Assembly (NCBI RefSeq): GCF_000003815.2
Contig: NC_049986.1
Coordinates: forward strand, 20,002,110 to 20,066,109
Source of the DNA: Branchiostoma floridae
Taxonomy: Eukaryota; Chordata; Leptocardii; Amphioxiformes; Branchiostomatidae
Direction of reading: 5' to 3'
Length of the DNA: 64,000 bases
A model generated the notes under the pieces. It was not told the DNA's origin, ran no database searches, and worked only from the letters and a program-made list of their open reading frames with translations. Position 1 is the stretch's first letter. The number at the start of each line of letters is the position of its first letter. The position numbers were made by a program, and so were the translations under genes. Shown here piece by piece: positions 843-59,738 of the stretch.

Positions 843-3800
843 CTAGATAAAGACTGTGAGAGCGCTGAGGGTCACCCCAACTTTGGCCAGCTCCGAGTTT
901 GACACGATCACCTTCTTCAGGTCAGCAAGTTTAGCCTCGATGACCTGTAGAATAATGAGAGAAAGAAACAGAAAGGTGATATCGATCCTAGTATAGAAGA
1001 GTTTTAAAATGTAAAATGTTCATTCCGTTACAATCTGTAATTCTAAGGATGGAGTCTGCTATCACAGAGATTTCTGACAACAAAGTTTTTTTTCCAACAA
1101 CAGACACTGGACATGTCCAAGGTGCTGAATTCTGTGTTCTGCTGTGCTGCCATTCGATGGATGTTTCCTTTTAACTTAGAAGTTTGTCCTTCTCAACAGA
1201 ATGCTTTTAATCGTCTTAAGAATCTTTCAGGATTTTGTTGTCGCTAAAGTCTGCTAAAACCACTGTCAAGAAGGACTGTGTAAACTACCAACAACATCAG
1301 CCCTAAAAAAGGACAGAGGTCTGGTCAAAAGCAATGTAATTTTAGTGATTTAACTCATAGTATTCCAGATTCTTTGAATGGTGCTACATGCACTCTACCT
1401 CCCTGTACTTTTTGTACTTTTACTCCATTTGCAAACACATTAACTATCATTAACCCCACCTCTGTGCTTTTAGGAATCTCCTCCTGAGTTCTGTGCACCA
1501 GAGAGCCATTGACAAACACACAGTCCACCGCCGAGTCCTCGGGTAGACACAGCACCTTGTACTTGTACTCTGCCTTCTCAATGATTTGCTGTGATAAGGT
1601 AGAAAATAAAACACACTGTGAGATACATAGACTGGAGAATTTTAATGCAATGGCCTTAAGGGTTGCTAAAATTAATTGTCCTTAAACAACAAAAATTGTA
1701 AGAACATCAATTCCAACATTAGAGTCTGGTATTCGAATTTAGCCAGCGGCACATTGGTGCCCTAAAAGCGTGTTAAAATCATATTAATGAAGCCTTTGTG
1801 ATTATAATAAAGGTAGAAACCTGTATGATGAATACAGACTAGTCTGGAACACCCATATTAAGTGTTATCATGACCAAGGCACCGGTATGCAATCATGTAA
1901 AGATTCTTCAAAGCTTTCACAAACATCAAAATTGTCAATGTTTTACAGGTTGTTTTACAGGATAAGTTCTTACTTTGATAACACTCTAAGCATCATTCCT
2001 CTATCAAAACAGAAAACATGATATAGAACACCAAATACTACTTCTAAAAGATATTGACAGTTTTCCTTCAATTAAAACTTCAGGTTATTTTGTAGAGTAA
2101 CTTGAAGATTTACTTCGATGACCCTCTGAGCGTCCTCCCCCTCCCCTGCTGCGATGATGTCAGGCCCTGCCATGGACAGGTAACTCTGCAGGGGGCGGTC
2201 TCCCTGGATGTACAGGGATGTCACCTAGGTAACAACCAATCACAGTGTGAATAGAGTAACCTGATATGGACAGGTAACTGCAGGGGGCGGTCTCCCTGGA
2301 TGTACAGGGATGTCACCTAGGCAACAAACAACCAATTAGGAGGCTCTCATGGTAATATGATGTATACCCTACCATACATGTTGTATATGGCCAGGCAACT
2401 CTGCAGGCACTTGGGATAATGTGATATCTAGTGGCTATGTCAAGCCCTGCCATGTATGGACAGGTTACTCTGGATGAACAGGGATGTCAACAAACAACCA
2501 ATCAGGAGGCACTCAGAATAATGTGATATCTACCTCCATGTAGAATTATACCCTGCTACTGAAACTTGCTGACCTACATGTTATGTTATTTGTAATTGGT
2601 ATTACAAGTTAAAAGACATTACTACGAAATGTAAAGTTTATTGCAAATTCTTGCCCGTGGGCTGAAAACAATATCACAAGTGTCTAATCTCGTCTAAAAC
2701 TAGTAAAAGCTAATTCTAGATCCTGGGTTATTGGGTTCGATGCCTTTTTCGACGACAGTGGAAGACGAAAGATCCCACCTTTTCCATTATGTGTCTGATG
2801 TTAGAAGGAGAATTGGTTTCTTGTTGTCAGTGAATGTAAAGAAGTTTGGGTGGAATTTGGTGGTCTCTTCAAACAGCTCTTTTCTTTCGTGATCGTAGAA
2901 AGAGCAGTTTGACATCAAATGTGTTTCGTCTTCCACCACGTTTGACGTGCATTGTTTGCACGTTCTTTCACACACAGGTAGTACATGTAGCTACAAAACA
3001 AAGTATTTTGAATTCGCACCTGGAAGTCTGGGAAGACTCGTGCAAGGAGCCTGGCGCCGGCGTCGTTCTTCGGAGCGGGTTTCTCCTTCTTCCTGCTGGG
3101 CATCCTGCGGGTTGGGCTCTGCGGCGCGTTGTTGTTGCTTTCCGTCACTCGCACGAAAAACTCCCTGCCTGAAAAACAATAATAATAATAATATGTACTG
3201 GTCTTAGGTGCAAATGTACAGTTCTTATCGAGCAGAACTGTCATCGGCACACCAAATCAGTGTGTGTCGTCATCAATGTCCTTGTACATCCCATTCCACT
3301 GTGCCTTGTCCGCTGCATGCATGGTCCTGCAGGCATTTCAGCATATAAGGTGCCAGCTTGACATTCTGATTGCCTGAAAAACTACGGCAATATAAGATGT
3401 TTTTATCATGTGAATATCGCTCTTTGGAGCGGTTTTCTCCTTCTTCTTGCTAGGCAGCCTGCAGGTTGGGCTCTGCGGCGCGTTGTTGTTGCTCTCCGTC
3501 ACTCACACGAAAAACTCCCTGCCTGAAAAACAACAGCAATATAAGATGTTTTTATCATGTGAATATTGTTCTTCGTTAATTCACAGTTAGGATGAATCCT
3601 GTTTTCCAACAAGATCTCTCTCACATCTTTCTCCAGTGTCACTGATGACTTGAAGACACCGGATGGCTGTCTGAAACGTCTGACCATTTCCAAAACCATA
3701 TCCAGTTGCCTGAGTAACTGCTTTTTGGCGTATCTTATTACCTGGATGTCTAGTCTTCATTGACGTAAAGTACTTCTTCTTGATAGTATTCTAGTCATAA

Positions 3801-6800
3801 TCTGAACAGCAGCGCCCCCATGTGACTCACCAGTGAACAGCACGTCCCTGCCGTCCAGCGTAGCCTCGATATCCCTCAGTTCCGCCACATTCCCCGCCCC
3901 CAGCTGTTCCTCCAGAACTTCCTTCACTGCCTTCAGCTGCATGGGGAAACAGACATACAAATAAACAAATAAACAAACAAACAAATTATTAAAATGCTTT
4001 TGAGATGTCCCTCAGTTCAGCCACATTCCCCGCCCCCAGCTGTTCCTCCAGCACTTCCTTCATTGCCTTCAACTGGGGAAACAAACAAACAAACAAATGA
4101 ATTTTTAAAATGTTTTTTTGAGATGTTCAAGGTATGCTCCTTTCTCCTTCACAAATTACTGTTGAAAGCGCATCTGAAACAATGATGATGATGAATTTAT
4201 TGTCACAGTAAAAATCAGTTCAGTTAATCTCTTTTCTTTCTACCTGATCAGAAGTTTTAGTTTAAGTAAGTCCTCAACAATTTTTTTTCTTCAATAATTC
4301 AGTGTTTGTTTCCTTCATTCTCTTGGCTCTCAGTGTTTTCTTGTTTTAATTTTTGCTTTAACAGATGCTTATAATTTCATACTACATGTATCTTCAAGTA
4401 TAAAATGCAGGTAGAAGAGCCTGACTGAGACCTGGGCTGAGATTACAGCTAGGATCGTAAAACATCTTAATTTGTGGTCCTACTTCAAAAACTTAACTTT
4501 CACCTCCCAGACCCACTTGAAAATCAGAGCCACCTACCAACCAAAGATTGTTGTTATAAACACTTCTCCTAATCACCCTTCACCTGCCACTGTTTCCAAC
4601 ATGCTCACTTACGCAGGGTAATGGTAAAACAAACACTTAGTCAACTTAACAACTTAAACATACAAAAATGTACAAGTGCTTAGAACTGCTGTCAATGACG
4701 TTTTGTAATTTAGGGGACCATTTATTTTATGACCTTTCCAGCTAGTATTCCCTTTAGAAGTCAGATCATTTTACAATTCTGTGTATTCGGTGACAAGTCA
4801 ATAATGGCTAATTCATTTCAATTTACATGTTTTTAAGAAAGCTGAAATGAAATGAAAAATGTTTCTGATTTTAAAATCTTATAAAAGGTAGATATCTTTT
4901 GTTCATTCAAATTGTATTTTCATTACCTTTCAAAATCAAAGATTATGTTCAAGTGCATCATCACCCTAGCTGTGGTATCAATGAAACACCCCCTGGCCTT
5001 GGCGCACTACTAAGGCATTAATGAATCTCCCCTTCAGCCATGTTGCTGCTGTAAAAGTCTCTATATATAGAGTAAAGGCTGTGAAACACCCCCTGGCCTT
5101 GGCCCACTACTAGGACATTAATGAATCTCCCCTTCACTCAATGTTGTTGCTGTAAAAGTTGGGTATAAATAAGTCAGAGTAAAGGCTGGAGGCAGTCTGT
5201 GTAATCACCAACTCCTCTGCAGCGTAGCAACGCTCTAATCGACAATTCTACCCACTCAAAGAAGGCAATTCCAGACCTTGCAGGGCTCAAAATACTTTTT
5301 TCCTGCATATCTGCAAAGTTACCTGCACCAGACAAATTTGACCTGCACCACTCTGAATTTAGGATGTATAACAACACTCTAATCAACAATTTTAACCACT
5401 CAAAGAAGGCAATTCCAGACCATTCGGAGAACCCTTGTCAGGGCTTAAAATACTTTTTTTCTACATACCTGCCATGTTACCTGCACCAGTCTGAATTTAG
5501 AAAGTATAACAACACTCTAATCAACAATTCTAACCACTCAGGGAAGGCAATTTCAGACCATTCTAAAACCCTTGTCAAGGCTTGAAATACTTTTTCTGCA
5601 TACCTGCCATGTTACCTGCACCAGTCTGAATTTAGGAAGTATAGCAACACTCTAATCGACAATTCTACCCACTCAGGGAAGGCAATTCGGAGAACCCTTG
5701 TCAGGGCTCGAAATACTATTTTATGCATACCTGCAAATTATTACTGGCACCAGACAAATTTTACCTGCACCACTCTGAATTTAGGAAGTATAGCAACACT
5801 CTAATTGACAATTTTACCCACTCAGGGAAGGCAATTCCAGACCATTCTCAGAACCCTTTCAGGGCTTGAAATACTTTTTTCTGCATACCTGCAATGTTAA
5901 CTGCACCAGACAAATTTTACCTGCACCACTCTGAATTTAGGAAGTATGGATCATACTAAAATTAATGCTAGTTTACCTTTATCTGTTGGGTAATCTATAT
6001 TTCGTTGCTTTTAAAAATAGGGTATTTAGGCACATCAAATCAACAGGTGGTAGTTTTAAACTGCAATATACTGAAAATATTGCAATTTGAAACTAACGTC
6101 CGTCAACGTGATGTCCCAAAATATCCTGTTTTTAAAAGCAACGGATATAGATTACCCAACGGATAAAAGTGACCATTACATGGACCAGTGCAGGTTAGGT
6201 GCAGGTAGACATCAGAAATACCTGCACAGCTCCAATGTTACCTGCTCTAACATGGTAGTGCTATTTCGATCCCTGCTTGTTATAAGCCAAGATTCGTGTT
6301 GATTTAGCAGAGTAAAGCTGGCAGAACGGCCTGGCGATTAGGTCCATCGGTAATGACGGCAGTTTGAGCACAAATTCATCCCCAAGCAATTACTGAAGAT
6401 TGGGGATTATGGAGACCTTGGCATTCTGTCAGCAGTAAACTTGGTGTCCTTTATGCCATAACAATTCTATTTGTCCTTCAGGGCACAGCAATTTTACTTG
6501 TAGATTCTTGGATTTTGACAAGACATATTGTAAAGCCAACATGTCAAAACAGAACTCTTTTAAACACATGTACCTCATAGTCTGACACTGTGCATGAACA
6601 AACTTAAAATGAGAAAAGTATGTGAAAAAGAAAAAAATAGCTGCAATGGTACCAGGTAGACACCAGAAATACCTGCACAGCTCCAATTTCACATGCACTA
6701 ACATGGTAGTGCTATTTCGAGCCTTTCTTGTTTAAAGCAAGTTAAGCAACCATGTTGATTTAGCGGAGGAAAGCTGGCAGAACAGCCCGGCGATTAGGCC

Positions 6801-9800
6801 CATCGGTAATGACGGCAGTTTGAGCACAAATTCATCCCCGAGCAATTACTGAAGATTGGGGATTATGGAGACCTTGGCATTCTGTCAGCAGTAAACTTGG
6901 TGTCCTTTCAGGTTAGGCCATAACAAATGTATTTTTTGGTTCTACTGAAAAGTCTCAGACCGATCCTATCAAACACCATTTACAAACAAGTCAGGGTTCT
7001 AGTCAGGATTTTATTTTAGCGTAGTGGGAATGGCATGGTAGCAAAGCGACTAATCAGGAGATTGGTGTGGAAGGGGGGGTCTTGGTCCTTCCACAGTGAG
7101 ATTTGAAGATGTAGAGTTAAAAGTTAGGATTTTGGGGTCAGTTTTGAGTGGCAAATCATCATTTTTCATTGTTCAGACATTTATCAGTCATTGTTGAACA
7201 AGCAAATGACAGCAAAGCACCACTACACTAGTTAAAAAGTAGCATAGTGGCCCTTATTTTAGCGTAGGGGTCACAAATTTTAGCGTAGTGGCCCTTATTT
7301 TTAAGCGTAGGGGTCACAAATTTTAGCGTAGTGGCCCTTATTTTAGCGTAGGGGTCACAAATTTTAACGTAGTGGCCCACTACGCTAAAATGCACTAGCT
7401 AGAACCCTGCAAGTAAACCCCCTGTTTGAGGAACAATGTCTCCATGATTCATCATCCTATGCAGGGACATCCAACCGGCGAAACCGGGTAACCCTGCTTT
7501 TTCAACCATCACCCTTAGTTCCTGACCAGATATTATTGAGCTTATCCTTATGTATGTGAGATCCCTTTTGAAAACTGAAAGGTCTATTCTCTGATTGGCT
7601 GACAGCTGGTTTGTGGCGACGCCCACAGGAACTAAGGGTGACGGTTGAGAAAGCAGGGTACATCCAGACAGGCGGTCTCTCCATTGGATGTCCCTGCTTA
7701 GGAAGAATTGCATATGATTGAACAGCTTTGATATTGGTCTATTGTAAGTGATAATGAAAAAGTTGATATCCATCATCACCTCTTTCCTGCGGTCGGGATT
7801 GGTCGGCCGCGTAACGAATGCTATCCCATCAACCACCACGGCGGTGTCCGCCACGCACGCGCATCCCGGGCACTCCTCATCGGCGGGAATGGTGATCACT
7901 CGCAATCCCAGGGTCCTCAGCGTGTCCACGTACGTGGTCCACTCATCTCGGGCCTGAAAACAATTGTAAGATAAAGATTAGATAAGAATATAAAATCATA
8001 AGAGATTGACACAACAAGTTACTACCATCTTTTCAACATCTACATCAGAGCTGACTACAACCATGAACAGAGACGGTGGGCGCCATAGGCTTCCTGCAAC
8101 GTATGATCCACTGCTTACTGAGTCACGTGTTCTATCTGCATACTAACGTGATGTCACAACAGCAGTGGACTGTTCATTCCTTGACAAAGACGTGCTGTTC
8201 AGTGCTGTAAAATTTGGGTGAGTCCAATTTTGGTGTTGGAATTATTACACTATTTACAGTTCAATATTAACCTTTTCAAGATGTCAACCTGGAGACCATA
8301 CTGTAACTTGTGTGTAAGGTTTGAATCCTGACACTTTGTTCCCATGTCTCCCAGGGCTGTTGACTCGTTCATTGATTTCTACGGCCAGTCCCTTGTACAC
8401 GTCTATGTAGAGTTAATTTGGACATCCCATCTCCCGTCACGACTTCACTGATGCCACGCAATTAATTATCAACTGTATATAGATCAGGTATCTGATTGTC
8501 CAATTGATTTTAATTTTCTTTGTTCACCACAGATTTATCAACCTGATGAAACTCAGAGATCTAGTTTGAAAATTTTCTTCCCAGCCTGCATGTTTCTGTC
8601 TGTGAAAGCCAGAGCCAATGATTAAACTATGAACAGGCTTAAGCTACCTGAAAAGTAATACACTCAGGACTGTGTTGGCTGTTACTAAGTGTGTTAGCTT
8701 CAACGACTCGATCATTGATTTCTATACCAGAGAAATACATATTGGCAAAGCATCCCTCCCAGTCCGTCAGTCTCTCACCCCCCATCTGCTTAGGCTTAGG
8801 TCACAATTCGAAAAAGGGGCCTTGCCGGGCAATTCACGGGCTGTTTTTTGGCACTTTCGGGCGTGACCCCTGCGTTGCCCTGTGGGACACTCGCGGCTGC
8901 CGGGGTATTTTGAGGCCCGGCCGGGACCCTGGTTCAATTTAAGTCTGAGTTAAAATGAACCAGGGACCCGCTCGTACAACCACCCCGCGACCTAATCGTG
9001 ACAACACCGAGAGGGACCCCTCCGGTTGCCGGCAGTCTGTCGGAATAAATTCGTTACGTCAAAGACCAGGTTTACGGAATAAAAGTGTGTAATTCGTAAC
9101 ACCGGGTCAAATATGTGACGTCACAGATCACGTGAAAGGACAATAGCCGTGAACTTACACGTATCACACAGTTCTCGTATTACAGTGGAGTTAAGTGCAT
9201 AGCGCTATACCAAGGGAAAGGAGAAGACCAGGGGAAACAGCCCTTAGCCCACTAGGCAGGCGGAAGAATTCAGCAACAGAAACTTCTGCAGACAAGGGCT
9301 GAACAGAGGGGGATAGGACAACACACCACGCAACAGACCACATAATAGGCTGCATCACTGAGAAGCAGGACGAACAGATAGCCTCCTTCATAGAAAGCTT
9401 CTATGTTTTTTACGATATTACAACCCCAGACTATAGAAACAAGCTGAAGAAAGATGTTTGGCTGAAGAAGGACGTTTCCTCTGCAATTGGCCGACGGAAC
9501 GCCAAACTTGCAGTCATTCGGACCCATAAGCCATTTTTTTTTCGTTTTACAAATATAAAAATATAGGCCTCAACAGTTTGGCAAGTCATCCGCCGACATT
9601 AAAAATTCCAATAACATGTTTATTTAGTTTAGGTTAGAAACGTAACAGTGCCGCACGTCAGTGCGAGTGCGAGGAAAAGTTGGCGAAAAAAACCGTGCCG
9701 CAGTGAACGGACCCCGACGTACCGCACCAGTACTCCAAGTTCAATGATGTACTACCTTAAGTGAATGCAGGCAATGCTTGTTTTTATACCCCTTAAAGAG

Positions 9801-12800
9801 TGCCCACCAGGAGCCTGCCTGGTTCCCTGCCGTTGTTCGCAGGGCATGCGGCAGGGACCCTACAACTGCCCCACCGGGCTGTGAGAGACAAACGTTACCC
9901 TGTCGGACCCCGCAGGGGTGACTACAGGACACCGTCAGAACATCTGACGGGTGTCTGCCGGAGACGAACCTAGGAATGTGGAAATTTTTTAAAGAAAAAT
10001 GACGGGGTGTCCGCCGGAACACTCCGGGACCCCCACGGGGCAGCGCGAAGGCAACGTTTGATTGTGACCACGACCGCCGGTAAACAGCCGGTGTCCGCCC
10101 GACTTCAGAGCCCGGCCGGGGCTACATCCCTGACGGGCACCGGGCCAATTGTGACCCTAGCCTTAACGTGTCTGCATTGACTGCATACAATCAATTATCG
10201 ACTGTGAAGACCAGGCATTTGATTGTCTGATTCAGTGATTGTCTCTAATTTTCTCACGTTATATGATATAATCATACTGAGCTTCTTCGTTACCAGTCAG
10301 TGACAGCCAAAGCCAATGATTACACGTCTAGTATGAATGGGCTAATTTGGCTAACGAAACTTAAAGATGCTCCTATGTCTGGGCTGTTAGCTTCAATGAC
10401 TATTTCATTGATTTCTACACCAGAGAAATACATATTGGCAAGGCTTCCCTCCAAGACGTAACACCTCGACGCAAAGTTAATTTGAACACCCCATCTCCCA
10501 AACACGTCTTCATTCACTCTGCACAATCAATTACCGACTGCAGGCATTTTACTGTCTGATTCAGGGAGCGTCTTTTCAGTGGAATTACTGATTGTCTAAT
10601 TCGGTAATTTTCTTAATGTTACATGATCATAGCTTTTTCCCTGCCTGTGACAGCCAAAGTCAATGATTACAGTCATCTAGTAGTATGAATATGGTTATTA
10701 GCTACCGTAACTACTTGAAGCTAGCTATAGTGTGTCTGGGCTGTTAGCTTCAATGACTCGATCATTGATTTCTATATACCAGAAAAATACATATTGACAA
10801 TGCCTCCCTCCCAGTCTGTTAATAAAAGTGTTATACATCGACGCAGAGTTAATTTGAACACCCCTTCTCCCAAACATGTTTTCATTCACTCAACAAAATC
10901 AAGTACTGACTTTGCATTGACCAGGCAATTTTGATCGTCTGATTCAGTGAATCATTTTCTTAAGTTATCAATATGTGATACATGTATAATCATACCTTAA
11001 ATAATCTTCCCTGCCTGTTATGGCCAAAGTCAATGATTACATGTCTAGTATGAATAGGGTTATTAGCTACCTGAACTAAGATGCTCTTGTGTCTGGTTGT
11101 TAGCTTCAATGACTTTTTTATTGATCAAAACCCTAGCAAAATACATGTTGGCAACACCTCCCTCCAAGACGTAACACCTCGACGCAAAGTTAATTTGAAC
11201 ACCCCATCTCCCAAACATGTCTTCATCGACTCAACAAAATCAATTACCGACTGTACAGGCATTTTACTGTCTGATTCAGTGAGTGTCTTTTCAGTTGAAT
11301 TACTAATTGTCTAATTCGGTAATTTTCTTTGTTATATGATATAATCATAGCTTCTTCCCTGCTAAATGTGATGGCCAAAGTCAATGATTACAGTCATCTA
11401 GTAGTATGAATAGTGTTATTAGCTATCGCAACTACTTGAAGCTAGTGTGTCTGGGCTGTTAGCTTCAATGACTTGTTCATTGATTTCTACACCAGAAGAA
11501 CTATATTGGCTACGCCTCCCTCCCTGAGTCCGTTACACATCGAAGCAGAGTTAATTTGGATCTCCCAAACATGTCTTCATCGACTCTACACAATCATGTC
11601 AATCAATTATCGACTTTGCAGACCTGTCATTTGATTGTCTGATTCAGTGATTTTCCCTAATTTTGTTAAGTTATATAATATATTATAGCCTATGATGGTC
11701 AAAGTCAATGATTACAGTCATCTAGTAGTATGAATAGGGTTATTAGCTACCGTAACTACTTGAAGCTAGTGTGTCTGGGCTGTTAGCTTCAATGACTTGT
11801 TCATTGAATTCTACACCTGTCCAGAAGAATACATATTGGCTACGCATCCCTCCCTGAGTCCGTTACACCTCGACACAGAGTTAATTTGGGCACACCATCT
11901 CCTAAAGTTGGTAATTGATTGTCTAGAGTCCGAAGACGGCGTGTTCAAATTAACTTTGCATGGATGTGTAACGGAGTCTGGACTGGGAGAAATGTGTTGT
12001 CAATATGTGTTAATGGCTAAGTGTAGAAATCAATGAAAGAGTCAGGGGCTTAAACAGTTGGCCAGACACCGTGAGGAGCATGTTAGTTCAGTTAGCTAAA
12101 ATGATTCATATACTAAGTCTAGTTTTATTATTGGCTTTGGCGGTCAGAGGCAGGGAAGAAGCTATGATTAATGTTATATGACATATAACATACTAAGAAA
12201 ACTAAAGATAATGATTAACTGAATGAGACAATCATTGCCTGGTCTGTACAGTCGAAGATTGATTTTGTTGAGTCAATGAAGACATGTGTACAGACTAGTT
12301 ACTAATAGTTTTTTGATTGTATAATTCAGTGAATTTCTTTCTTTATAAATTATGTGATATAATTAAATAAATTATATAATATAATTAGTATTAGCTTCTT
12401 GCCTGCCTGTGATGGCCAAAGCCAATGGTTACAGTCACTTTGTCTAGTAATAGTATGAAATTCAATACACTTAGTATTAGCTATCTGAACATAGAGGCTC
12501 CTGTGTCTGCCCAACTGCTTAAGCCCCAATGACTTTTTCATTGATTTCTATGTCTAGCAAAATACATATTGGCAATGCCTCCCTCCCAGTCCGTTACACA
12601 TCAACGCAGAGTTAATTTGGACACCCCATCTTGGGCAGACATGTCTTCATTGAGTCTACATCAATTATCGACTGTGAAGACCAGAGACAATTTTTATTGT
12701 CTGATTCGGTGCCTTTCTTTAATTTCCCTATCATAATAAGCTTCTTCCCTGCCTATGAGTGACAGCCAAAGCCAATTATTACATGTCTCGTATGAAAAGG

Positions 12801-15800
12801 CTTATTTAGCTACCGGAACTAAGATGCTCTTGTGTCTGGTTGTTAGCTTCAATGACGTTTTTATTGATCGAATCCCTAGCAAAGTACATATTGGCAAAGC
12901 CTCCCTCCCAGTCCGTTACACATCGACGCAGGCTTAATTTGGACACCTCATCTCGGCCAGACATGTCTTCATTGAGTCTGTGCAATTAATTACCGGCCGT
13001 GTGGACGGCGTTCAATCGTCTGATTGTCTTCTCGGAATCAATCGAATAAATGTAAATGCCGAAACGTTTCCACAATAAAAGAAGCAGTTTCTTCAAGATC
13101 TCTCCAGTGTCACTGACGAAAGATAGTGAAATTTTTCTTTGCTGTCTGGAACGTCTGACAGCCTCGAAAATCGAGCAACTGCTTTTTGGTATCTTATTAC
13201 CCGGATGTCTAACCTTCATCGATGCAGAAATGTTCGTGGCAGTTTTACGTTCACAGATTCTGTGAGGCCGCTTCACCGCAAACTGAAACATTTTTTCCAT
13301 AACAATATGTGACTATTACAGTGTATGGCGCTACCGCGAAGTCAAAGCCTTACCACAAACACTCCATTTTCCTGCTTTCGCGAAATTAAAGCCTTGAAAA
13401 TTTAAATGCATTTTACGGTATTTCCTCCATCCATGCTGTACACGTAACTACTTCAAGACATAAACTTAAGGAGTTACGGTCATCTTGAGACATCAAACGT
13501 TTCAATCGAGTCAGGGGCAAAAATCACCTCGGAACTTAATGAAATATCGAGGATAGAGTCCCTGGCCATCCCAACGGTTACCCCTAACTAGTCAAAAGGG
13601 ATTATGGGGGACTCCGCCATTTGATTACATCGAGAAGGACACCAGCAGAGGAGGAATATTATTTGGGCCGGCTGAAAGGATTTCACAGTTCTAGTAGTGA
13701 AGACATGTCTCCCTAAAAAATGGGTTCTTACAGAAAAAGAGAGGAAAATAGGAAATCGTACTTTTAAAATATCATAAATCATACAATAACATTAGAGTTA
13801 ACCATCCAGAAAAAAGCAATGAACTATCATTCACCTTTAATTTTAGCATTAAAAGAACGTAACTGTCACTAATACATTCGACTTCATTCAATCTCTTACT
13901 AATGTACTTGATTGTTTCTGAACTCCAGGCCACTTAATTCAGCAAGGATGACAGCTGAGCAGATTACGACTGGATAAAATACAAATTACTGGCCACTTGA
14001 GTCTATTTATTTTCATCACAAACCCTGAAATGATAGGGGTTCAATCGACTTATCCAATCTACATAAAAATGTAGACAACATGTCATTTGGTTAGATGTAT
14101 ACAATGTGACACTGACAGCTAATGATATTATTTTACCACTCCGTTAGTCTACTGCAATAGCAAGGGTAGAAAGTGCAAGTTTGGGTGCAACGGATCATTA
14201 AAAATCGAAAAATCTTCAGATTTATTCAAAAAATCTATGTGCTAGATCCTGAGATCTTTTGAGACAATCTTGAGATTTTTCATGAGTATCTTGAGATCTC
14301 TATTTGCTTCATGGGACATTTCCATAATTATAATGGTTCTTTCTGAACATACAATGTATGGCATTAAATCTGATCATAGGTACTGACAAAGTACAGACTT
14401 TATCCTGCACCTTTATGCATTGACCGTCCTAAAAGCTATTACTATAAGTCCCTCCACATCCATCCATACTGTTGCCTGCCCCAGTTCTATACCAGCCAGT
14501 GGCCTTGGAGTGGACAGTGGGAGGCAGGTATGAAATGATTGACATACAGAGTCTGACTTATGTCTTTCCAAAACATCCTTCCATCTACTGAACCTCCTTG
14601 CATACACGCAGCCATCTAATTGCAGCCTGCCCCAGTTTTGTACCAGCCAGTGGCCTTGGGCAGTTGGAGGCCTAGTTTATGGCCATGTTAATATAATTCA
14701 CTGTTTTCTATCCCAATGTGCATTATAAAAGAAAATGATTTACAAAGGAGGTCAGCGGTTTAAGCTAGCATTAAAAAGTCACATCTTTTTAATGATCAGT
14801 GAGCTTTATATTCACTTAACAAACGCTATAACGCTATATAACGCTAGTGTCTTCTTTCAAATTGAATGTTACAAAAGATTTGAGTCGAGATTGATGACTA
14901 ATTTGAATGATAAAAGATAAGGACCATCATTAGAAACGAGCCATTGAAAAACCACCAGCATTTAATCTGTTGTAACTACCACCTCTTTAGTAACTATACA
15001 CCCTCCTGCTGGTGGGAATGGACAGTTACTAATACTATAGTACACTGTATATAGACTGGAATAGACTATGATTCTTATGTGTGCCTCTTGTGATTCCTGG
15101 TAATCAGTCACACCCTAGGAGGAGAGCTGGGTAGAGTTGATGGACAACAGGCTCCTATATCCTTATCTCTGGGGTTAATCATGGGTGAAAAATCAATTAT
15201 CCACAGATAACCTAGTACATGATTCTATTTGGTTTTGTTTCCATATCCTTCAGGCATAACGCTAGTTCACCTTTATTTCTATCCGTTGGGTAACCTATAT
15301 CCGTCGCTTTTAAAAAACAGGGTATTTGGGGATATCACGTTGACAAATATTGCATGGTTTGCAATTTCAATATTTTTAGTAGATTGCAGTTTAAAGCTAC
15401 AACCCGTCGACTAGATGTGCCTAAATATACTATTTTGAAAAACAACGGATATAGGTTACCCCGCAGATAATGGTGAACTAGCGTTACATAAGAATCACAA
15501 TGGAAAAGTGTTCAAGTTTGCGTTGACTGTATGGCTGCCTCTGTGAAAATTCAAGCGTCCGAAACGGCTAAGACGGCGTCTACAAGCGTCCAAAGGCGTC
15601 TGAGCGCGTTTCAAACTCTCTGGACGCGTCCATTGCAGTCAGAAACGGCCGCGAACACATCGTGAGCGTCCGGGCCGTTCTGTCCGTTTTTTTGTTGGAC
15701 GCCCAGACGGCTGAAAGACGTCTGAGACGGCCGTCTGAGACGGCCACTGATGGGGCTATAAAATACTTAGGAACCCGACGCCCTCAGACGGCTTGCGTCT

Positions 15801-28789: not shown

Positions 28790-28794
28790 AGTAG

Positions 28795-49251: not shown

Positions 49252-52200
49252 ATGGCGGACTGGTGGTTCGGACAGTACACCTCGGCGCTGGTGTGCCGCG
49301 TTCCCGAGTCCACGGCCTCCCAGCCCTCCTCCAACGGGTCCACCAAGGGGCACGTCAACGTGGAGCAGGCCCGGGGCGAGTGGGAGAAGTTCACCGGGAC
49401 GCTGCGGCGCCTTGGGGCGGGCGTGCTCGAGCTGTCGCCCGAGGAGGAGTGTCCGCAGGGCCCGTTCGTGTCGGACTGCGCCGTGGTGTGCGAGGGGACG
49501 GCCCTGGTCACACGGCCCGGAGGCGACAGGAGGAAAGAGGTGAGAGTTTTTCTCCAAAATCCTTCAAAAACTAAATTCCCAACACATCGTCTCACAATAG
49601 ACAATCTAAAGGAATATTTAATATGCCAATTTTGAGTGTAATCTTTAGTGACAGTATAACAATAGGCTTAGATGAAGGCCAGACATGCGTTTGTGTATAC
49701 CCAGACGGGTATACAGCTGAGCTTTACGGTTTAACTGAAAAAGCATTAGCGGTCAATGTCAACTGAACACCCCTCTCCTCCCCCTACAAGAAACCTGTTG
49801 GTTGAACTGTTACTGTTAGTGGGACATGGTCAGCCATTCTCCGGTTGTTATGGTTTTACATGTGGCTGCATGGGTAGTCATCCATGAACAACCTGTGAAT
49901 ACTGTCTAGCTGAGGGTGGCTTTTTATGTGGGACATGCTCTGGAGTATCCTGTTACGGGGGGGGGGGGCACTATACTTGTAGGGGGTTGGAGGTAGCCTT
50001 GTCATGTCAAATTCTACGAGTCAGGATTTTTTTCTGGGACATAACGTTACATCATTGCTCTCATTAAAGTTTCTTGTAGCTGCATAATAAGTTAACCCAA
50101 CCTCTTACAAGTGACTTATGTTCTGAAACAAAACTTTTACCAAGTTCATGTCGGTTATAATTAAGGTCATCTTAAAGAGAGATTTCAACAGCAATTTCAT
50201 ACCTGAAAGAATAATTTGGACTTGCAACTTCACTGTACAGAACCAAACATCATAACAATTGTTGTTATAATCTAATTTGTGATATAAACATTAGAAGGGT
50301 CATGAGATCCATGTGCATGCTTTTGTATTTCACTTCGTCTGTTGGATATAACGTAACATCATATTATCTCAATCACCAGTCATAGAATGCTGACAAAGTG
50401 TGTGAATAAAAAAGACTAGGAGGAAAAAGTTTCAAGTAGACCATAGACGTTGTACATGTAGCAAAAATTGTGATCAATAGTTCACTGCTTACGAGGAATG
50501 AAAAGAAACAAAAGGCCGGAGAAAAGAGCCATATCGACAGTTAACTTTCTCCTCCGCCGGAATGTTGTTGATATAATCAAGACTAAGAAAAAGTTCCAGG
50601 TAGAGAAAAAGTCAGATTTATGCATGTAAAATCTTCTAATATTGTGAACAATCATTGACTGCTGACGAGGAATAGCAAGAAACAAAAGGCCAGAGAAAAG
50701 AGCCACATTGACAGTTAAGTTTTTCCTCAGACCATAGATATTGTCCATGTAACATTGTGAACAATAATTCGCTGCTGACGAATAATAATAAAAAACAAAA
50801 GGCCATGGAAAAGAGCCGTATCGACAGTTAAGTTTCTCCCCAGCCGGAATGACATGAATAATTAAAGCAGCCGGTGCTGTTCCCCCAGCCAGCGTCTGAC
50901 TGCTCACCAACGCTAACCGAGTCAGCAAGGCCTAGGGAAAAAATGTTGTGTTTCCTGTTTCTCTACCTACCCTAGAAAAACCTGCCGACCCTAGAGTAAC
51001 TAGACTTTTTGGGGGTGGGCAGTGTAGTCACATAGCTTCCAGTCAGAAGTTTTTTTCAGCCTGCTTCCTATTAAGGTAAAAAGCCTGCTTGTTCTATCTA
51101 ATGAAGGATAAATGTATCTATTGCACAAAATTAAAGTTTAACAATGAAAGACAAGTGTGCTCATGCATTTCAGTTTACTTTGTTCAACTGCATTGTAATA
51201 TGTGTCACAAGAGTTTTGGCCAGCCAAAAAATTACAAGAAAAAAAGATAATCCCTACCTAGTACCGACCCTAATTTTTTCAGGATTGAAACAGGAAACAC
51301 AATATTTTTTTCTAGGCCTCACCAATGCTAACCGAGTCAGTAACGTGACATCACCGCTCGCCGCCGAGCTAACACAATTACTACGGGGGCTGTCTGGCCA
51401 ACGTTTTCCCTGCTGCAGCAGTATTAGGGGATAATGAGGATTTACTACATGAGGAGGGGCTGTTTTTATTAGCGTAGGCATACTTTTTTCTGCATACCTG
51501 CAGTGGTGCAGGTGGCATTTAAAATTACCTTTTTTTACCTGTACCACTCTGAATTTAGGAAGTATCTGTATCTGTATCTATATAGCCGGTATAACCGCCG
51601 TTCGGCGTAACACACCAGCTTCGCAGGCACGCGGCGCGGCAGCAGCTGGTTATATTACGTATGGAAGTATGGATCATAATAAAATTGTTCAGGAACCATT
51701 GCTATTTTTTCTTTCATACTTTATAGGTGGTAACATTCAATGCATGCTTGTAACAATCCACAATACACCTACATGTACATCATAGGACATTTGTGTATAA
51801 AACCCAGTATATGGACCAGTGCAGGTTAGGTGCAGGTAGACACCAGAAATTTCTGCACAGCTCCAATTTTACCTGCACTAACCTGCATATGTGGGTGGTA
51901 TTTTGAGCCCTGCTGCAGCAGTATTAGGGGGATAATTAGGATTTACTACGTGAGGAGGGTCTGTTTTTAGTAGTAAGACTTGAAATCCCACCCGCATATT
52001 CAGGTTAGTGCAGGTAAAATTGGAGCTGTGCAGGTATTTCTGGTGTCTACCTGCACCTAACCTGCACTGGTCCATGTACTGGGTTTTATACATAAATGTC
52101 CTATGATGTAGGTATATGTGGGTTGTTATTAGCTGCATTGACTGTGGTGTGGTGCAGGTAAAATTTGTCTGGTGCAGGTAATTTTCAATGTTATCTGCAC

Positions 52201-55200
52201 CAGTGCAGAAAAAAGTATTTGGAGCCCTGAGGGGGATAATGAGGATTTACTACATGAGGAGGGTCTGTTTTTATTAGCGGAGGATCACCTGAGCTTGATG
52301 AAGGTAAGACCTGATCATGACTGATGCGGAGATGAAAGTGGAACAGATAATCTCCATGATTCAGCAGATGGGAGCATCATTTAGGCTACACTGATTTCAT
52401 TCATTGGTTCTAGAATTAGCTCTAAAGTTGAAGACCAAGTGTACATGTAAGGTCTCATTGCAGTTTTTTCAATTCAATATTCATTGAAAGTAATACAAAA
52501 ACACAACTACTACCGGAAACCTCTTCCATATTATTCATCTTATGTTGAGCACATTTACCCTTTATCATGAGAAAAAAAAATGCCAAAGAAAAAAACAACA
52601 GATAATCTCCATGATTCAGCAAATGGGAGCGTCATGTAGGCCACACTAATCTGACTTATTGGTTCTGAAATTAAATGAAAATATGCTGAAGTAGAAGAAC
52701 AACTTTAACCTTAGTTAAACACAACACAGTTTGACTCTTGGAGTTGGAGGGGAAAGTCTGACTTCACCCTTGTAAATGAATGTTAAAACCCTCGTGTATC
52801 TCATGTTGATAAAAGTGGGACAGGTCCTTTATGATTCAGCAGATATGAGCGCCATTTAGGCTACACTTATTTGATTCATTGGTTTGAAATTAGATCAAAA
52901 TATGCTGAAGTTGAAGACCAAGTTTAAGGTCTCCTTCATGAATTTTTTTTCTCCATAATTGTACAAAAGTATTACAATTTTTTACTAGTTGAAGCTTTAT
53001 TGATTTTACAAGACGTATCCATCATCAAATTAGATAGAGGCTTCCCAAAATAATTACGCTGATTTGTTATTTTTAACTAATTTGAAACATGTACCAAAGC
53101 TCTAGTACTAGTACTTAAAATGTTCTATTAACAGTAATTTTGGCATGTCCCATTTGGGAGTTTGGGTATAGATGTAGGACAAAGATAGGACTGATTTTGA
53201 AAGACGGAGGTGTCTGGCTCTTGTTTGTGAGAAGTGAATGCAAAGCGGAGATACACTGTACACATCATGATATGATATAATTGGAACTGAGAGAGATCAT
53301 AATCACACAGAAGCATTTGCAGACCTGAAACTGATGATTGATACCAATGCCACTACTTATGCTACCAGTACTGTTTCTCACAATGATTAAGATCAACTCA
53401 CCTTGACTTTGACTTTGGCTTTGACCCTGAAATCCTGCATCTTTCACAACATTTCATTACTTGTAACATGGGACAGGTCGTCCAGTAATACAACAAGCTG
53501 CTGCCACCAAATGCCACATACCTGCAAAGTTGATGTGCTACACTAAAGTCATGATCAGTAAAGGTACAGATACAGATACTCACTAAGTAAGTATAGATGC
53601 AGATACTTATAGTTCCTTATGATTAGGCCAAGGTCCACAAAATGGTAAAAGTCAGTGATCAAATGTTTCTATTCTTAAAAGGTGTCTTTTGGGCTTATAT
53701 AGCGCTACAGCTATTATATATATAATGGCACTACATACAAACTTTGCAAGTTAAACTCAGGAAAATTTCCGTTTACATGTATCTTTTTCACTTGAGTACT
53801 TTGTTAGATCAATATGATCAGAGGCCGAGGAGTGTGAAAGTTGGCCTCATTCCTGTCATACTGATGCATTTCACTTTTCATGTGTGTTGTGTATTTTCTT
53901 TGAAATATTGGCAGCCAGTACTACTGATGACATGATGAGTCCACCCATGTGCCCACACACCTGTGGTTAATCATCAGTCATGACTTCTTCACCTGTTTAC
54001 TTTCACTAGTGAGAGTGAAATGTGATCCTTGTCCACCATCTATATGACCTGTGCCATACCTAACATAAAATCCAGGTCTGAACAAAGTGGCAGGTCAGGA
54101 AAGGTGGTTTTCAATGTGCTTTTATCTAAAGCTGTGGTGGGATGGAGAAAAGCTGACTGTCTTGGTGAAAATAAAGTGAAAGTTCTGGTTACCTTTTTGC
54201 ATTTTTGCACAACACATTGTATCACAGCCAACCAGTGAACACCTCTGCATAATAGTACCACCTGTCCAATGTGACCCTTTTATTCTGGTCCCCAATGACG
54301 CAACCATTAAGAATCCTGTCTCTTGTGACCACCTGTTAACATATAAATAGCTGAGAGATTTTCTTATTCTTGGGCAGTTTTTTTACTGTGAATCTGCTTT
54401 AATCCACTCTCAATAGTTGTCTTTTAATTCAGCATATAGAGACCAGGACTTTGACTGGTGGTTTTGTGTGACCAAAAAGCCTCATTGGTGTATCAAAAGA
54501 AAATTGCCCACATAGAAAGAACTCTGGCACAGCTTGCCAAGAGGGCCTGATTGGGGTTACGACAACGATTTACGCTGAATTCAGAATAACCCCCTACATA
54601 TTACGCTAAATCAAGGAAGGCAAGTACGCTAAATTTGGTCGCCTTGCTACGAATTACGTAGATAAGATGGGTTTCCCTACGAGTCATGGGAAATAAAATA
54701 GGCTGCCTACGCCTTACCGGAAAAGTACTCTCCAAGCAGAGGTCGGGTCGCAGAGATATACTAGTAGTCGAAAAAAATACAGAGCCGCTCCTCCTACTGC
54801 TGGGTGCTGGCGCGGCCGCTGAACATGTGCTGGGTGCGAGTTAATCCGGGGCAGTAAAACTATTTGGCTAACGATCTTTTTATGCTTCGGGGGGCGGAGT
54901 ACTAACATGGATTTTGAAAGGATATCTCCGCCCCTATGCGTTCTGTTGCAGAGGTAGGAGGAGGGGCTCTGTATTTTTTTCGACTACTAGTATATCTCCG
55001 CGACTCGACCTCTGCTTGGAGAGTACCAGAAAAGAGCATGCAGACCCTCTGCCAAGAGCTGGACAAAAAAGCCTTCTGAAACCCCAGCTATCAATAGACT
55101 TGTGCTGAATCCCTGCCAGAAAACTTTGATTACCTTTGGTTCTGCTTGGCTGGGTCTTTAGTAGAGGTAGAATTTGTGCCACAGATTATCCTCCCAAGTA

Positions 55201-58200
55201 GCCATCATTTTGTAGGCACACACATTAAGGCCAGACCAATTTAACTTGTGGGTTCTCTGCTTTAAAAAGAAAGTTCCACACATTGTTTGGGAGCCCATGT
55301 TGTTGATTTTTTGTGTGTGATATTTCAGCTTAGGAGAATGCATCTTCGTCACTGACATATTGTGTCATGAAGTTCTGATATAATTTACTTTCAGACAGAC
55401 ACTAGGAATTTTTTTTCAATAGGAACACCGCTTTTCACCCAGCTATGTGCATATTAGCTTTTGAATTTATTTCATGATGAGATAAAACATATAATTACAT
55501 GTAACTGGAAGAAAAGATGATGGACAAATAGCTGATTTGAAGACTTAATTCAACTTAGAAGTGGGGCAACCTGAAATGTTAATGGCGCAACCTGGCTTTT
55601 GACTCAGCTAGGTTGCGGCTAAAAAAGACTATTTCGAGCACTGCTTACACAGATCATTTAAAGTAGCCCTGATTTTACAGGTTTGATATTTGCGCTATGA
55701 TTACCCTGTAATGGGATCTCCCTGGCAGTGTCATTAACCCCTGTGACAGTTCCCCTGGGAAGGACACCAGAGCAGGGAACACAAACTGCACTGTGACTGG
55801 CAGCTGTGGGCAGGTCCAATGGGACTACTTGTACCACTGTTTGCCTCCATGAAAAATGGAGGTATAGTTTTTACTCTGCATGGATCATACCTCCTGTGTG
55901 TGTGCAAGAGTGGGTCTCAGGGCTGTCTCCAACTTAAATTTTTTTCCGTCCCACTCATTGTTCTGGAGCCCATTTTGTTGATTTTCCTCGTCATTTTACG
56001 ATTTTACATGTGTGTGTCATTTTAAGGTCTTAAAAATAGATTTTCAACAGTTTCATGTCATGAAGTCCAGACTTTTGGGACGGATCATGGGGTAATATTA
56101 TTTCTATCCCGAAAAGTAGATTTCCATCCTGAGATGGAAGGATGGGTCCTGAAGACAGCCCAGTGGTGGGATGAATATACATTTTGTATATAATACACAA
56201 GAGGACATTGTGAAAGCAGAGATAGAACAGGGAGGAAAACTTGTCAATTAATATTTACTCCCAGAAAGCTAGTAGTACATGCTTCTCCCTCTCACTCTGT
56301 TTTCATACTGATCTTCTAGGCCAGCATCATTTTTTAAAATCTGAGAACCAATAAATTTAATTGCTGTGGCTTACCTTTGCCTCAGGAGACCTCCAGACAT
56401 CTGCTTGGTCCCTCCCCAGTGTACCCTGGGTGTCAGTTTGATTCTGTAGGTACATAAACAGGACGACCTTGGGAGCCTAAAGGTCACCACTGCAGCTTTC
56501 CAAACAGTCCCGCTGTTGCACCACAGGAAATCGGAATGTTGTTGTGGAATTCCGGCTGCTTTGAAAGTGGAACAAACTAATGGTTTTGTTCCTTTGGTGA
56601 ACAGATACAATGTTACAGTTGTTCCAGGTGGATCTGAGCCTGGTAACCATTCTCCTCCTCTTGCCGGTCCTGTTAACAGGCCTGTTTCTGCCAGGGGTGT
56701 TAATTTCCTAACATAAGAAATGATTTTGATGTGAAGTTTAAATTTTCTAAAGTTAATGGTTTTGACTAGTAATTGAGGTGTGTATATTCTAGACACACAC
56801 ACATTTTCCAAACATAGATATATAATATACAATTTCAGAGCATTGGGCAGAACAACGAGTACAACAAATTGACTCAACTATATGCTGAACGGAAGAGTGG
56901 CAAAAACTGGAGTAAAAACTCCTTCCTGGCTGAAACCACTCTACTCTACTCATAGGCTACTTTGCTCTGACTACGGTAGTACTCTACTCTACTCTACTCT
57001 ATTCTACTAATATACCCAAACTAGCCATTTTGTCAGTAGTTTAGCTTAGGTTATCAGCTACTTTGTGAGGTCACTGTGAACAGCATGATAACCTACAAAC
57101 TTTTCAACACATCATAAATGGTGGGCTGTTATCAGCCCAGCAGCAGTCTACAGAAAACAGGTCAGGGCCAAGGGCCATAGGAGGTACTGTAAATGCATTT
57201 AAGTTGGTGGGGATTTAATTTCGCGGTAGCGGGAAAAGGACTTTTCACGGTGGATGTAAGTTCACGGTAACACCATACTAATGTGATAGAAAAATGTTCG
57301 CGATGGTTTTAAGTTCGTGGTGAACCGTGAACATTAATCCACCACAAACATTTCTGCATGATTTACAGTGCTGTCTTGTTTCATGGACTTTACGTATAGT
57401 AATAGTAATACCTACTGATAGTACTGACTGACAGAGATAGTACTTTCATGTTATCTTGCAACACTGGGCAGAATTAAAGAAAAAAAACAAGAAATCACTC
57501 AGTAGTCCTTTGCCAAATGATGGGTTGATTTAGTCAGGAAGAAATTAGATTAGATTTGAAAGATGATTCCATAAATCAAATCTTTACATTGACCAATGAA
57601 CATAATAAAATTGTATTTTCCTACTTTGGTTGGACTAATTGTTATGACGCTAGTTTACCTTTATCCGTCGGGTAACCTATGTCCGTTGTTCACTGAAACA
57701 GAGCACTGTTGCAGGGATATATCAAAGTCTTTCACACTGCAATAGAATTTAAGGTATTGCATTTTGAAACCTTTGTCTGTCGACTTAATATACCCAGTGT
57801 TTTTAAAAACAAAACGGATATAAGTTACGCACGGATAAAGGTAAACTAGCGTTAGCAACAAGGGAATCCGATGATAACATATTACTTGTTTGTCATCACT
57901 ATCTATTGATAAGGCCTTACAAACATGCTTGCAATAAACAAACAGACTTAAGCAGATACAAGATAACGCTAGTTCACCTCTATCTGCGGGGTAACCTATA
58001 TCTGTTGCTTTCAAAATCAGGGTATTCATTGCTATCATGCCGCCAAAATGTGAGTTCAAACTGCTATACTTTGAAAATTACAATTTGAAACAACCGTCTG
58101 TCGACTTGATATTCCTGAAAGCGCTGTTTTGAAAAACAACAGATATAGGTTTAATTTACCCCACGGATAAAGGTGAACTAGCGTTACAACAGCTAAGTCA

Positions 58201-59738
58201 CAACAAGGAAAAGTTTCACTGAATATTCTCCAAGATTCCCCAGATTTTCCAAGTTTGCTGCATGAGGTGATGGTAACCGATGAATTTATTACATCTGACC
58301 TGCCTAATGGACTCAGATCTGGGTGATAACAAATCAATTGTTTGTCATTGATATCTATTCAGTAGAACTTAGTTTAATTCATACATATACGTACATGTTT
58401 GTCCATTGATCTTAAACTACAGTAAGGTCACAACAATGAAAAGTTTTACCAAACATCCTTGCCAGGAATATATTGAAATCTAGACCCTTTATTTTGAGGG
58501 GAAAATTTTACTGGTAGACTCAGCTTGGTTCAATTAGAATATTTACATGCCAACTTTTGTACGTCACAGATGACGGAATAGGCTAGAACCTGAGTCCCAC
58601 AGACTTTCCAAGTTTGCTGCATGAGGTGATGGTAACCGATGAATTTGTTACATCTGGCCTGCCTAATGGACTCAGATCTGGGTCTAATTGCAGGAATTCC
58701 AGGCTGGAAGTGATGGATACCTCTGGTGATGGGCTGTGATGGGGCTTGATTGACATTTTCAGAGGCCCTGCAGGGGTTTAGGGAGATTCGTGATCAAGTG
58801 TTTTTTGCTGTGAATTTGGGAAGATTTGTATCTGTAGCAAAATCAATTATATGATACTGTAACTCTGGTGATGGGCCATGAGAGGGCTTGATTGACATTT
58901 GCTGTGGCTCTGCAGGGGTTTATGGAGATTTGTGACCTAGTGTTTTTGCTGTGAACTTGGGTAGATTTGTATCTGTAGCAAAATCAATGACATGATACTG
59001 TAACTCTGGTGATGGGCCATGAGAGGGCTTGATTGACATTTGTTGAGGCTCTGGAGGGGTTTAGGGAGATTCATGACCTAGTGTTTTTGTCAGTGTATAG
59101 AAATGTTTTTTTAAGAGGAAACTTTAAGAAAACATTTTTGCAAACACAAGGCAAACATGAAGGTACTGTCAAAGCTGGAATCTCAAGGGACTGGGAAAAA
59201 TGGTTGCTGAGGACAGGTGGTTGTTCAGGACAGGGTGGGGTTAACTATGTGAAAATGGACGGAACTGTTTTAATGTAGCTGTAGTTGGTTGCTTGACCAA
59301 GTATGACTGTAAATTACAGTGTGTAATTCCAGTGTTACAGTAATATTATATAATTTTTTCCATAAGGAAAAGACGAGCCTGGAGACAACTCTCTATCTTC
59401 ATGGCTACCTTGTCCCCCCAATGAGCATGAAGTTCCAGGTCCAGGTCCATTACAGTATTCTTGTCATTATTGTTTTTAGGTTGCATAATGTTGTGAATAG
59501 CTTATTTATTAACCTGTTTGTTTGTTTTTGTTTATCCAGGTTGAGGTGATCCGTAAGGTGCTAGAGCAGGACCTGAAGCTGGATATTGTACAGATGTTGG
59601 ATGGTTGTTTACCTGTTTGTTTGTTGTTTATCCAGGTTGAGGTGATCCGTAAGGTGCTAGAGCAGGACCTGAAGCTCGATATTGTACAGATGTTGGACGA
59701 CAACGCGACGTTACACGGGCAGGACGTCCTGTTTACTG
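49252..59738 (+). CDS. DDAH-like protein, 5' part only, key residues substituted (gene D)
   Basis: The first two coding exons of a third DDAH paralogue are 49252-49539 (96 codons, donor GAG|GTGAGA) and 59636-59738 (34 codons plus 1 nt, phase 1, donor ACTG|GTAAAC). The intron between them is 10.1 kb. Exon 3, which should begin with a GREFFVGLS-like block, is not found before 64000, so the gene runs off the window. The start AAGATGG fits the Kozak context. Family blocks are VCRVPES, VLELSPEEECPQGPFVSDCAVV (59-80; core FVSDCAVV), TALVTRPGGDRRKE and ATLHGQDVLFTG. Equivalents of human DDAH1 D73, E78 and D127 are Q69, S74 and H123. The D79 and R98 equivalents (D75, R93) are kept. Loss of the substrate-pocket acids suggests reduced or absent dimethylarginine hydrolysis. 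The catalytic His and Cys exons are outside the window, so this stays a prediction. Confidence 0.85.
50490..50870 (+). repeat. Three tandem units in gene D intron 1
   Basis: AAACAAAAGGCC...GAAAAGAGCC...TCGACAGTTAA...TTTCTCC recurs at about 50507, 50681 and 50794. Confidence 0.75.
51420..52290. repeat. Large palindrome with ~130 bp arms and repeated flanks
   Basis: The left arm 51770-51905 is complementary to the right arm 51979-52112 (GTATATGGACCAGTGCAGGT, CCTGCACTGGTCCATGTAC). A block GATAATGAGGATTTACTAC...GAGG..GTCTGTTTTTA occurs three times (about 51430, 51930, 52232), once as the palindrome loop. Confidence 0.85.
52330..52960 (+). repeat. Three tandem ~240 bp units in gene D intron 1
   Basis: CATGATTCAGCAGATGGGAG...TTAGGCTACACT...TTGGTTCT...AAGACCAAGT recurs at about 52358, 52610 and 52835. 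Confidence 0.75.
52961..54725. other. Gene D intron 1, no exon seen
   Basis: AT-rich intron. A decayed TACAGTCAAAC-type element (GTGACC...CCACCTG words) is visible at 54240-54340. Confidence 0.4.
54726..55025. mobile_element. MITE with ~70 bp inverted ends
   Basis: TACTCTCCAAGCAGAGGTC and GACCTCTGCTTGGAGAGTA bound the element. The arms continue through ATATACTAGTAGTCGAAAAA and its complement. It shares end motifs with 35018-35168 and with 17920-18950. Confidence 0.85.
55026..57185. other. Gene D intron 1, no exon seen
   Basis: The CTCTA pentanucleotide microsatellite is at 56938-57008. Frames around 56371-56877 show no family resemblance and no splice context. Confidence 0.4.
57186..57371. 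mobile_element. Short inverted-repeat element
   Basis: ACTGTAAATGCAT and ATGATTTACAGT ends, with GTTCACGGT/ACCGTGAAC words inside. Confidence 0.6.
57645..57854. mobile_element. Hairpin MITE, family M1, copy 3
   Basis: GACGCTAGTTTACCTTTATC pairs with GGATAAAGGTAAACTAGCGT. Confidence 0.85.
57963..58186. mobile_element. Hairpin MITE, family M1, copy 4
   Basis: TAACGCTAGTTCACCTCTAT pairs with ATAAAGGTGAACTAGCGTTA. It is 109 bp from copy 3 and in the same orientation. Confidence 0.85.
58230..59100 (+). repeat. Two sets of tandem units before gene D exon 2
   Basis: A ~90 bp block (TTCCAAGTTTGCTGCATGAG...GGACTCAGATCTGGGT) occurs at 58246 and 58604. A ~135 bp block (GGTGATGGGC...GGGCTTGATTGACATTT...GGGGTTTA) occurs three times from 58722 to 59070. 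Confidence 0.8.
59540..59604 (+). pseudogene. Partial tandem copy of gene D exon 2 with its acceptor
   Basis: About 65 bp here repeat, with very few differences, the first two thirds of gene D exon 2 at 59636-59700. The copy includes the polypyrimidine tract built of TTTG repeats and the CAG acceptor. It stops after codons for QMLD and has no good donor (ATG|GTTGTT), so it is probably skipped or a decoy acceptor. The whole unit is about 97 bp, and the near identity implies a recent duplication. Confidence 0.8.

Follow-up and report, generated by a model that had tools for sequence, protein, structure and literature searches.

Whether exon–intron borders are preferred targets of local duplication is the question raised by a 64,000-nucleotide stretch of the amphioxus Branchiostoma floridae (contig NC_049986.1, positions 20,002,110 to 20,066,109; the whole of it is called the window below), which contains three genes of the dimethylarginine dimethylaminohydrolase (DDAH) family, here genes A, C and D, and one gene of glycosyltransferase family 29 (GT29), gene B. 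A first-pass annotation had described copies of an exon edge together with its splice site in every one of these genes, at the acceptor side of exons 3, 4 and 5 of gene A and of exon 2 of gene D, and at the donor side of exon 6 of gene B and exon 1 of gene C, and had concluded that six such cases are far beyond chance and point to a duplication process biased to borders. All six duplicated edges were found at these places by alignment and by splitting of the repeats into units, and in each of the six the repeat unit spans exon and intron bases across the splice site. A process biased to borders is nevertheless unsupported within the window, since copies span 6 of 31 scored splice sites and 204 of 1000 intron positions. 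The six cases are probably duplications of the kind known from amphioxus as mirages, i.e. ordinary short local duplications (offsets 56-216 bp) which would have crossed an exon–intron border by chance, with no need for a border-seeking machinery.

Duplicated borders and the intron background

That the duplications themselves are not due to chance follows from a shuffle control, in which two-base pieces of the window were permuted within 500-base blocks: in all 10 of the 10 runs no local pair was left at an offset of up to 600 and 50 bits. The wording "far beyond chance" thus holds for the existence of the duplications and fails for their position at borders. It is likewise correct that all four recognised genes are affected (the gene search of the remaining sequence was not exhaustive), but with 31 sites this has a chance probability of 0.11, 0.20 or 0.33 at a per-site background of 0.122, 0.159 or 0.204, respectively. 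The copies, which had been called tandem, are more accurately near-tandem, as not all are strictly head to tail and, in the five cases outside gene B, 3-220 bp lie between the matching parts (gaps obtained by subtraction of alignment coordinates).

The scored set comprises 31 splice sites (12 in gene A, of which three are duplicated, 8 in gene B, 8 in gene C and 3 in gene D). For 28 of them the splice context was printed, with 11 then shifted by 1 to 8 bases to the nearest AG or GT, and three further gene B sites were placed by open frames only; the first exons of gene B and its exon 4 acceptor lie outside the set. The self-alignment of 1-kb windows centred on splice sites, which the first-pass annotation had proposed genome-wide, was run inside the window, a match being a copy that extends about 10 bases past the centre in both directions; intron controls were random positions that kept a distance of 250 bases or more from every scored splice site. 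No significant excess was seen at splice sites, and in the same comparison 74 of 600 intergenic positions were spanned. At 80, 85 and 90% identity (E up to 0.01), 5, 4 and 2 of the 31 sites matched, as against 108, 78 and 22 of the 1000 controls; for the 85% setting (77 controls at the strictest E-value) P is 0.22-0.23, and the lowest one-sided P among the 16 settings, with controls treated as independent, is 0.15.

A whole-window version of the test, based on circular shifts and run at nine settings without multiple-testing correction, gave P values of 0.21-0.41 in seven of them. With offsets up to 400-1500 and no limit on identity or length, 6 of 31 sites were hit for 4.9-5.6 expected (P 0.33-0.41); with pairs of more than 300 columns excluded the figures are 6 and 3.8 (P 0.215), with offsets up to 200 they are 4 and 2.2 (P 0.23), and at 80% identity and 60 bits 5 and 2.8 (P 0.21). 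Without an identity cut-off and with offsets up to 400-1500, 16-18% of intron positions fall in local duplications; the share drops to 12% if pairs of more than 300 columns are omitted and to 7% for offsets up to 200. With 16-20% of intron positions duplicated, six of 31 splice sites is approximately the background expectation. A per-site background of 0.072, taken from offsets up to 200, would have given P 0.021 for six matches and P 0.024 for all four genes; it was not applied, because only four sites in three genes are matched at those offsets, and the comparison of 4 with 2.2 was used instead. Counting by clusters leads to a similar picture, with 26 duplication clusters in the window, 20 of them inside gene spans, and a splice site in 6 of these 20 versus 3.7 expected if clusters are placed at random (P 0.16).

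There is therefore no significant border excess overall; the shorter duplications and those of highest identity hint at one. It has to be noted that a single window with 31 sites is a small sample of little power, so that a modest border bias, up to about twofold, is still compatible with these results.

The copies at the individual borders

The four main acceptor-side pairs share a pattern: in border-marked alignments of copy against copy, identity on ungapped columns is higher for the exon part than for the intron part, at 0.93/0.88, 0.92/0.85 and 0.97/0.83 for exons 3, 4 and 5 of gene A and 0.98/0.94 for gene D. Selection on one copy, with the other unconstrained, would lead to this difference. 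Such selection on exon bases would raise the identity and score of a border pair, and an identity filter would consequently favour border pairs over intron-only pairs of equal age.

At exon 3 of gene A the pair is 87.8% identical (exon part 64/69, intron part 22/25) with 38 bp between the matching parts; the upstream copy retains a CCCCAG acceptor, from which the reading runs into stops. The exon 4 pair is 89.6% identical (97/106 and 23/27) with 220 bp between, and both surplus acceptors, read from 3522 and, for the third copy, from 3373, lead to stops. The last two acceptors of this exon lie inside direct repeats, GTTTTTCAGGCA, with 193 bp between them and 205 bp from start to start. The intervening 193 bp segment (within 3166-3382, minus strand) carries a terminal ATT run at the exon 4 acceptor and a copy of GTTTTTCAGGCA on each side; no second copy of it was found in the window, and its best match outside is about 31 bases. 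The third acceptor copy may accordingly have a separate origin, in an insertion with target-site duplication, in which case the AG that now precedes the exon would be one of the two target copies. At exon 5 the pair is 90.9% identical (55/57 and 15/18), with 17 bp between the matching parts, and the copy keeps its acceptor AG, the use of which would give stops; a decayed third copy (19/21 exon and 14/14 intron columns identical) has lost the AG.

The donor-side array of gene B consists of 11 units of 56-61 bp, two of 39 bp and one partial unit, a full unit being about 32 bp of exon end followed by about 24 bp of intron start. The donor CAG/GTGAAGG (slash at the border) is intact in the four units nearest the exon and in none of the other ten, six of which keep GTGAAGG alone; use of donors 2-4 would give stops. 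Complete donors are restricted to the exon-adjacent units, a pattern suggesting that units are gained or refreshed on the exon side of the array.

The gene C pair is the least alike, at 69.9% identity (exon part 21/27, intron part 82/95 ungapped columns) with 80 bp between the matching parts; the copy retains GAG/GTACAC, and this second donor, if used, gives stops. In gene D, finally, the pair is 93.8% identical (exon part 61/62, intron part 29/31) with 3 bp between the matching parts, so that two near-identical acceptors stand 96 nt apart. The upstream one has a T-rich tract and an AG, the frame is open through both copies (59506-59739), and its use would add 32 residues in frame. The stretch between the two exon copies measures 34 nt, which is too short for an ordinary intron, so the copy can be at most an alternative acceptor. 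Use of the surplus site thus leads to stops in five of the six cases, gene D being the exception.

Origin of the duplications and alternative explanations

If the six cases are ordinary local duplications, each would go back to a local mistake during replication or end joining, made where short stretches match. For gene A exon 4, CGAAGAAC occurs both in the exon end of the unit and in the intron bases preceding it; in exon 3 the exon end of the surplus copy and the preceding intron bases share ACATC, where the present exon reads ATATC, so that present exon and intron have only ATC in common, or ACATC if the base of the surplus copy is the ancestral one. In gene B, unequal exchange or conversion would then have enlarged the array, leaving the most recent units beside the exon. 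A duplication lying wholly within a coding exon would harm the protein; a copy that crosses the border, in contrast, would be tolerated, as the surplus part sits inside the intron and would be removed with it by splicing, and this difference may explain why border-crossing copies persist. For the amphioxus globins, reverse-transcription polymerase chain reaction and, for Adh3, further published data suggest regular splicing despite such copies, at least in the part of the report considered here (PMC3087553), which makes removal with the intron the default expectation for the surplus copies in the window.

Several observations weigh against this explanation. The short matches at breakpoints were seen by eye at two sites, without statistics, and no clean ones were found at the others. 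At 85% identity the circular-shift test returned 4 of 31 sites for 0.9 expected with offsets up to 400 (shift P 0.036, binomial P 0.014), and 3 of 31 for 0.6 expected with offsets up to 200 (shift P 0.052, binomial P 0.021); among the clusters no longer than 800 bp (a limit set by the analyst), 6 of 18 contain a splice site versus 3.1 expected (P 0.077). Contrary to what selection on exon bases predicts, two of the six aligned pairs show lower identity in the exon than in the intron part: gene C (0.78/0.86) and, at exon 5 of gene A, the decayed third copy (0.90 versus 1.00, the latter over 14 intron columns). Lastly, one homologous acceptor (gene A exon 3 and gene D exon 2) is duplicated in two of the three DDAH paralogs, which might indicate a local predisposition. 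The filtered excess, the small clusters and the shared DDAH acceptor, with its TTTG-rich tract in both genes, are what a mutational process truly favouring borders would produce, e.g. slippage in the polypyrimidine tract or the TTTG runs at acceptors, or breakage linked to transcription or splicing, and the several amphioxus cases already reported in the literature considered here point the same way. Such a process is judged unlikely, given that the matched control shows no significant excess at any of its 16 settings and that the circular shifts show none over all local duplications; conservation of the exon can moreover both ease the recognition of border copies and hold their identity, although gene C does not show this. 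A broader combination, in which borders would be mildly duplication-prone (up to about twofold, in small clusters), T-rich acceptor tracts would act as seeds, the DDAH acceptors would have been duplicated independently, genes would be fed spare splice sites and the gene D copy would be young and possibly used, is doubtful when taken as a whole.

Retention of the copies for a function, as alternative splice sites for tuning or diversifying the gene products, would fit the gene D upstream acceptor, with its tract, its AG and its open frame yielding 32 additional residues, and the four complete donors that gene B keeps adjoining its exon; judged from the sequence it seems improbable, since surplus sites in the other five cases give stops, and since the missing AG in the third copy at gene A exon 5 and the ten of 14 gene B units without CAG/GTGAAGG, four of them also without GTGAAGG, are what drift predicts. 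Amphioxus is very polymorphic, and the window contains three runs of 100 N (28646-28745, 37726-37825 and 63525-63624), both of which speak for an assembly artefact in which two haplotypes or unresolved repeats were joined in tandem, as does the variation of mirage copy number between haplotypes or assemblies described in the parts of PMC3087553 and PMC3902484 considered here. This explanation is very improbable nonetheless, as copies outside gene B differ by 6-30%, none of the six cases lies at a run of N, and the PGBD5 repeats of amphioxus were, according to the part of PMC3902484 considered here, confirmed by new reads; the copy number in gene B could still be wrong through misassembly.

Two further ideas were rejected. 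A clustering of unit ends at branch-point distance from the AG had been considered, as the alignments reach 18-34 columns into the intron; the offset minus the exon part, however, gives about 35-67 nt for the intron ends, and indels in TTTG runs shorten the alignments. Exchange among DDAH paralogs as the source of the copies was dismissed because the acceptor copies within a gene are 88-94% alike in DNA, as compared with about 40-62% identity between paralog exon peptides.

Genes and other features of the window

The coordinates of the genes and of the duplicated borders are collected in Table 1. Exon 1 of gene C matches DDAH1 chains in the PDB (E about 9e-26), and the joined gene C reading lies above the Pfam cut-offs for ADI and DDAH_eukar; single DDAH exons stay below the cut-off (gene C exon 1 reaches 22.2 versus 23), and three other DDAH exon peptides were assigned no family by Pfam. 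Genes A and D share exons with gene C according to tblastn within the window, the identity between gene A exon 2 and the DDAH1-matching exon of gene C being about 60%; no exons of gene D beyond exon 2 were found up to the window end. Gene B scores 73.1 bits against the Pfam GT29 family (PF00777, cut-off 23) and matches a solved alpha-2,8-sialyltransferase structure (PDB 5bo6, E 4.5e-12), and its two upstream exons carry sialylmotif-like sequence.

Table 1. Genes and duplicated exon edges, in window positions
Feature	Position	Strand	Parts and basis
Gene A, DDAH family	843..21475	-	tblastn of exon peptides inside the window, splice contexts, start codon
Gene A, seven recognised coding exons	21475-21350, 7953-7780, 3936-3831, 3168-3020, 2224-2114, 1588-1460, 944-843	-	
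Gene A exon 3, acceptor-side duplication	3868..4097	-	border 3965-3868; upstream copy 4097-4004; offset 136
Gene A exon 4, acceptor-side copies	3063..3573	-	border 3196-3063; copy 3549-3417; third acceptor copy 3424-3371
Gene A exon 5, acceptor-side copies	2166..2534	-	real 2242-2166; copy 2334-2260; decayed third about 2534-2470
Gene B, GT29 sialyltransferase (ST8Sia-like)	30270..36300	-	upper limit nominal, gene start not placed
Gene B, exons 6-8	33493-33388, 32257-32122, 30538-30270	-	
Gene B, two upstream exons with sialylmotif-like sequence	near 35290-35200 and 34874-34783	-	open frames, by eye
Gene B exon 6, donor-side minisatellite	32696..33456	-	14 units beginning TGTAC, from 33419 down to about 32695
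Gene C, DDAH family	40076..44695	+	five coding exons
Gene C exon 1, donor-side copy	40334..40675	+	border 40334-40469; copy 40550-40675; offset 216
Gene D, DDAH family	49252..59739	+	exons 1 and 2
Gene D exon 2, acceptor-side duplication	59506..59697	+	59506-59601 versus 59605-59697; first exon bases 59540, 59636

The first intron of gene A contains a family of diverged copies about 320-370 bp apart (10157-12979), and the longest local-duplication cluster inside a gene lies at 10170-11889. A 57-bp minisatellite of about seven units, plus two at 63398-63514, occupies 62577-63521, where no gene was recognised. An open frame on the minus strand at 46260-46586 encodes a Mos1-type transposase helix-turn-helix (Pfam HTH_48, 41.7 bits versus 24.1), a mariner-like fragment, and at 28570-28830 the flanks of the first N run form, by eye, an inverted repeat, which may place the gap inside a palindrome. 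The window gave no hits in Rfam (gathering thresholds) or in tRNA scans. In the viral_contigs collection a 30-base repeat from the window had no matches, and of 11 pattern matches for gene C exon 1 none was confirmed.

Comparison with known systems

The statement in the first-pass annotation that border-spanning minisatellites occur in amphioxus genes was right: they have been published as "mirages" in two globins, BflGb6 and BflGb9, in a paper that also cites Adh3 and further loci (PMC3087553), and in PGBD5, with Adh and troponin C (TnC) cited (PMC3902484). As far as the parts of these reports considered here go, the units are 10-72 bp in Adh3 and 150-160 bp in the globins (PMC3087553), and 60 and 108 bp in PGBD5 (PMC3902484). 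The duplications in the window resemble them in being border-spanning copies on either side of the exon, two to several in number, many, not all, of which keep the AG or GT. The offsets of 56, 94, 99, 136 and 149 fall within the published range of 10-160 bp; the gene C offset of 216 exceeds it, with a matching part of 126-136 bp. They differ in that the DDAH paralogs and the GT29 sialyltransferase are not among the loci named in those parts of the two reports, in that three borders of a single gene (gene A) are affected, and in that the mirage accounts there include no matched background test. The kind is thus already known, with DDAH and sialyltransferase genes as additional loci with respect to the parts considered. 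A paper on huntingtin (PMC2206037) contains no mirage in the part considered, and no genome-wide border test in amphioxus was recognised among the matches listed in the literature searches.

In the accounts considered here mirages are reported gene by gene, and the control in this window suggests that, in a genome rich in short local duplications, a position at a border may be what persists and draws attention rather than what the process targets. The useful result is that control, which turns a striking pattern into a question testable genome-wide; its extension to the whole lancelet genome would measure the rate at which spare splice sites originate, and these are raw material for alternative splicing and for intron gain.

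Mirages have indeed been proposed as a route to new introns (PMC3087553, part considered), and in the sections considered of two further papers a tandem duplication across an intron–exon boundary is tied to intron gain in potato RdRp (PMC4974935), and exonic duplications with proto-splice sites are tied to it in Drosophila (PMC2891723). The likeness to these cases is that splice signals are copied, the potato unit crossing an intron–exon boundary as that of gene D does; the difference is that no new intron is evident in the window from the sequence, where in five of the six cases (all but gene D) the surplus copy lies inside an existing intron. Tandem alternative acceptors of the NAGNAG-like kind offer another comparison, in that gene D has two equivalent acceptors in series; unlike adjacent AGs, however, these stand 96 nt apart and stem from a duplication of exon sequence.

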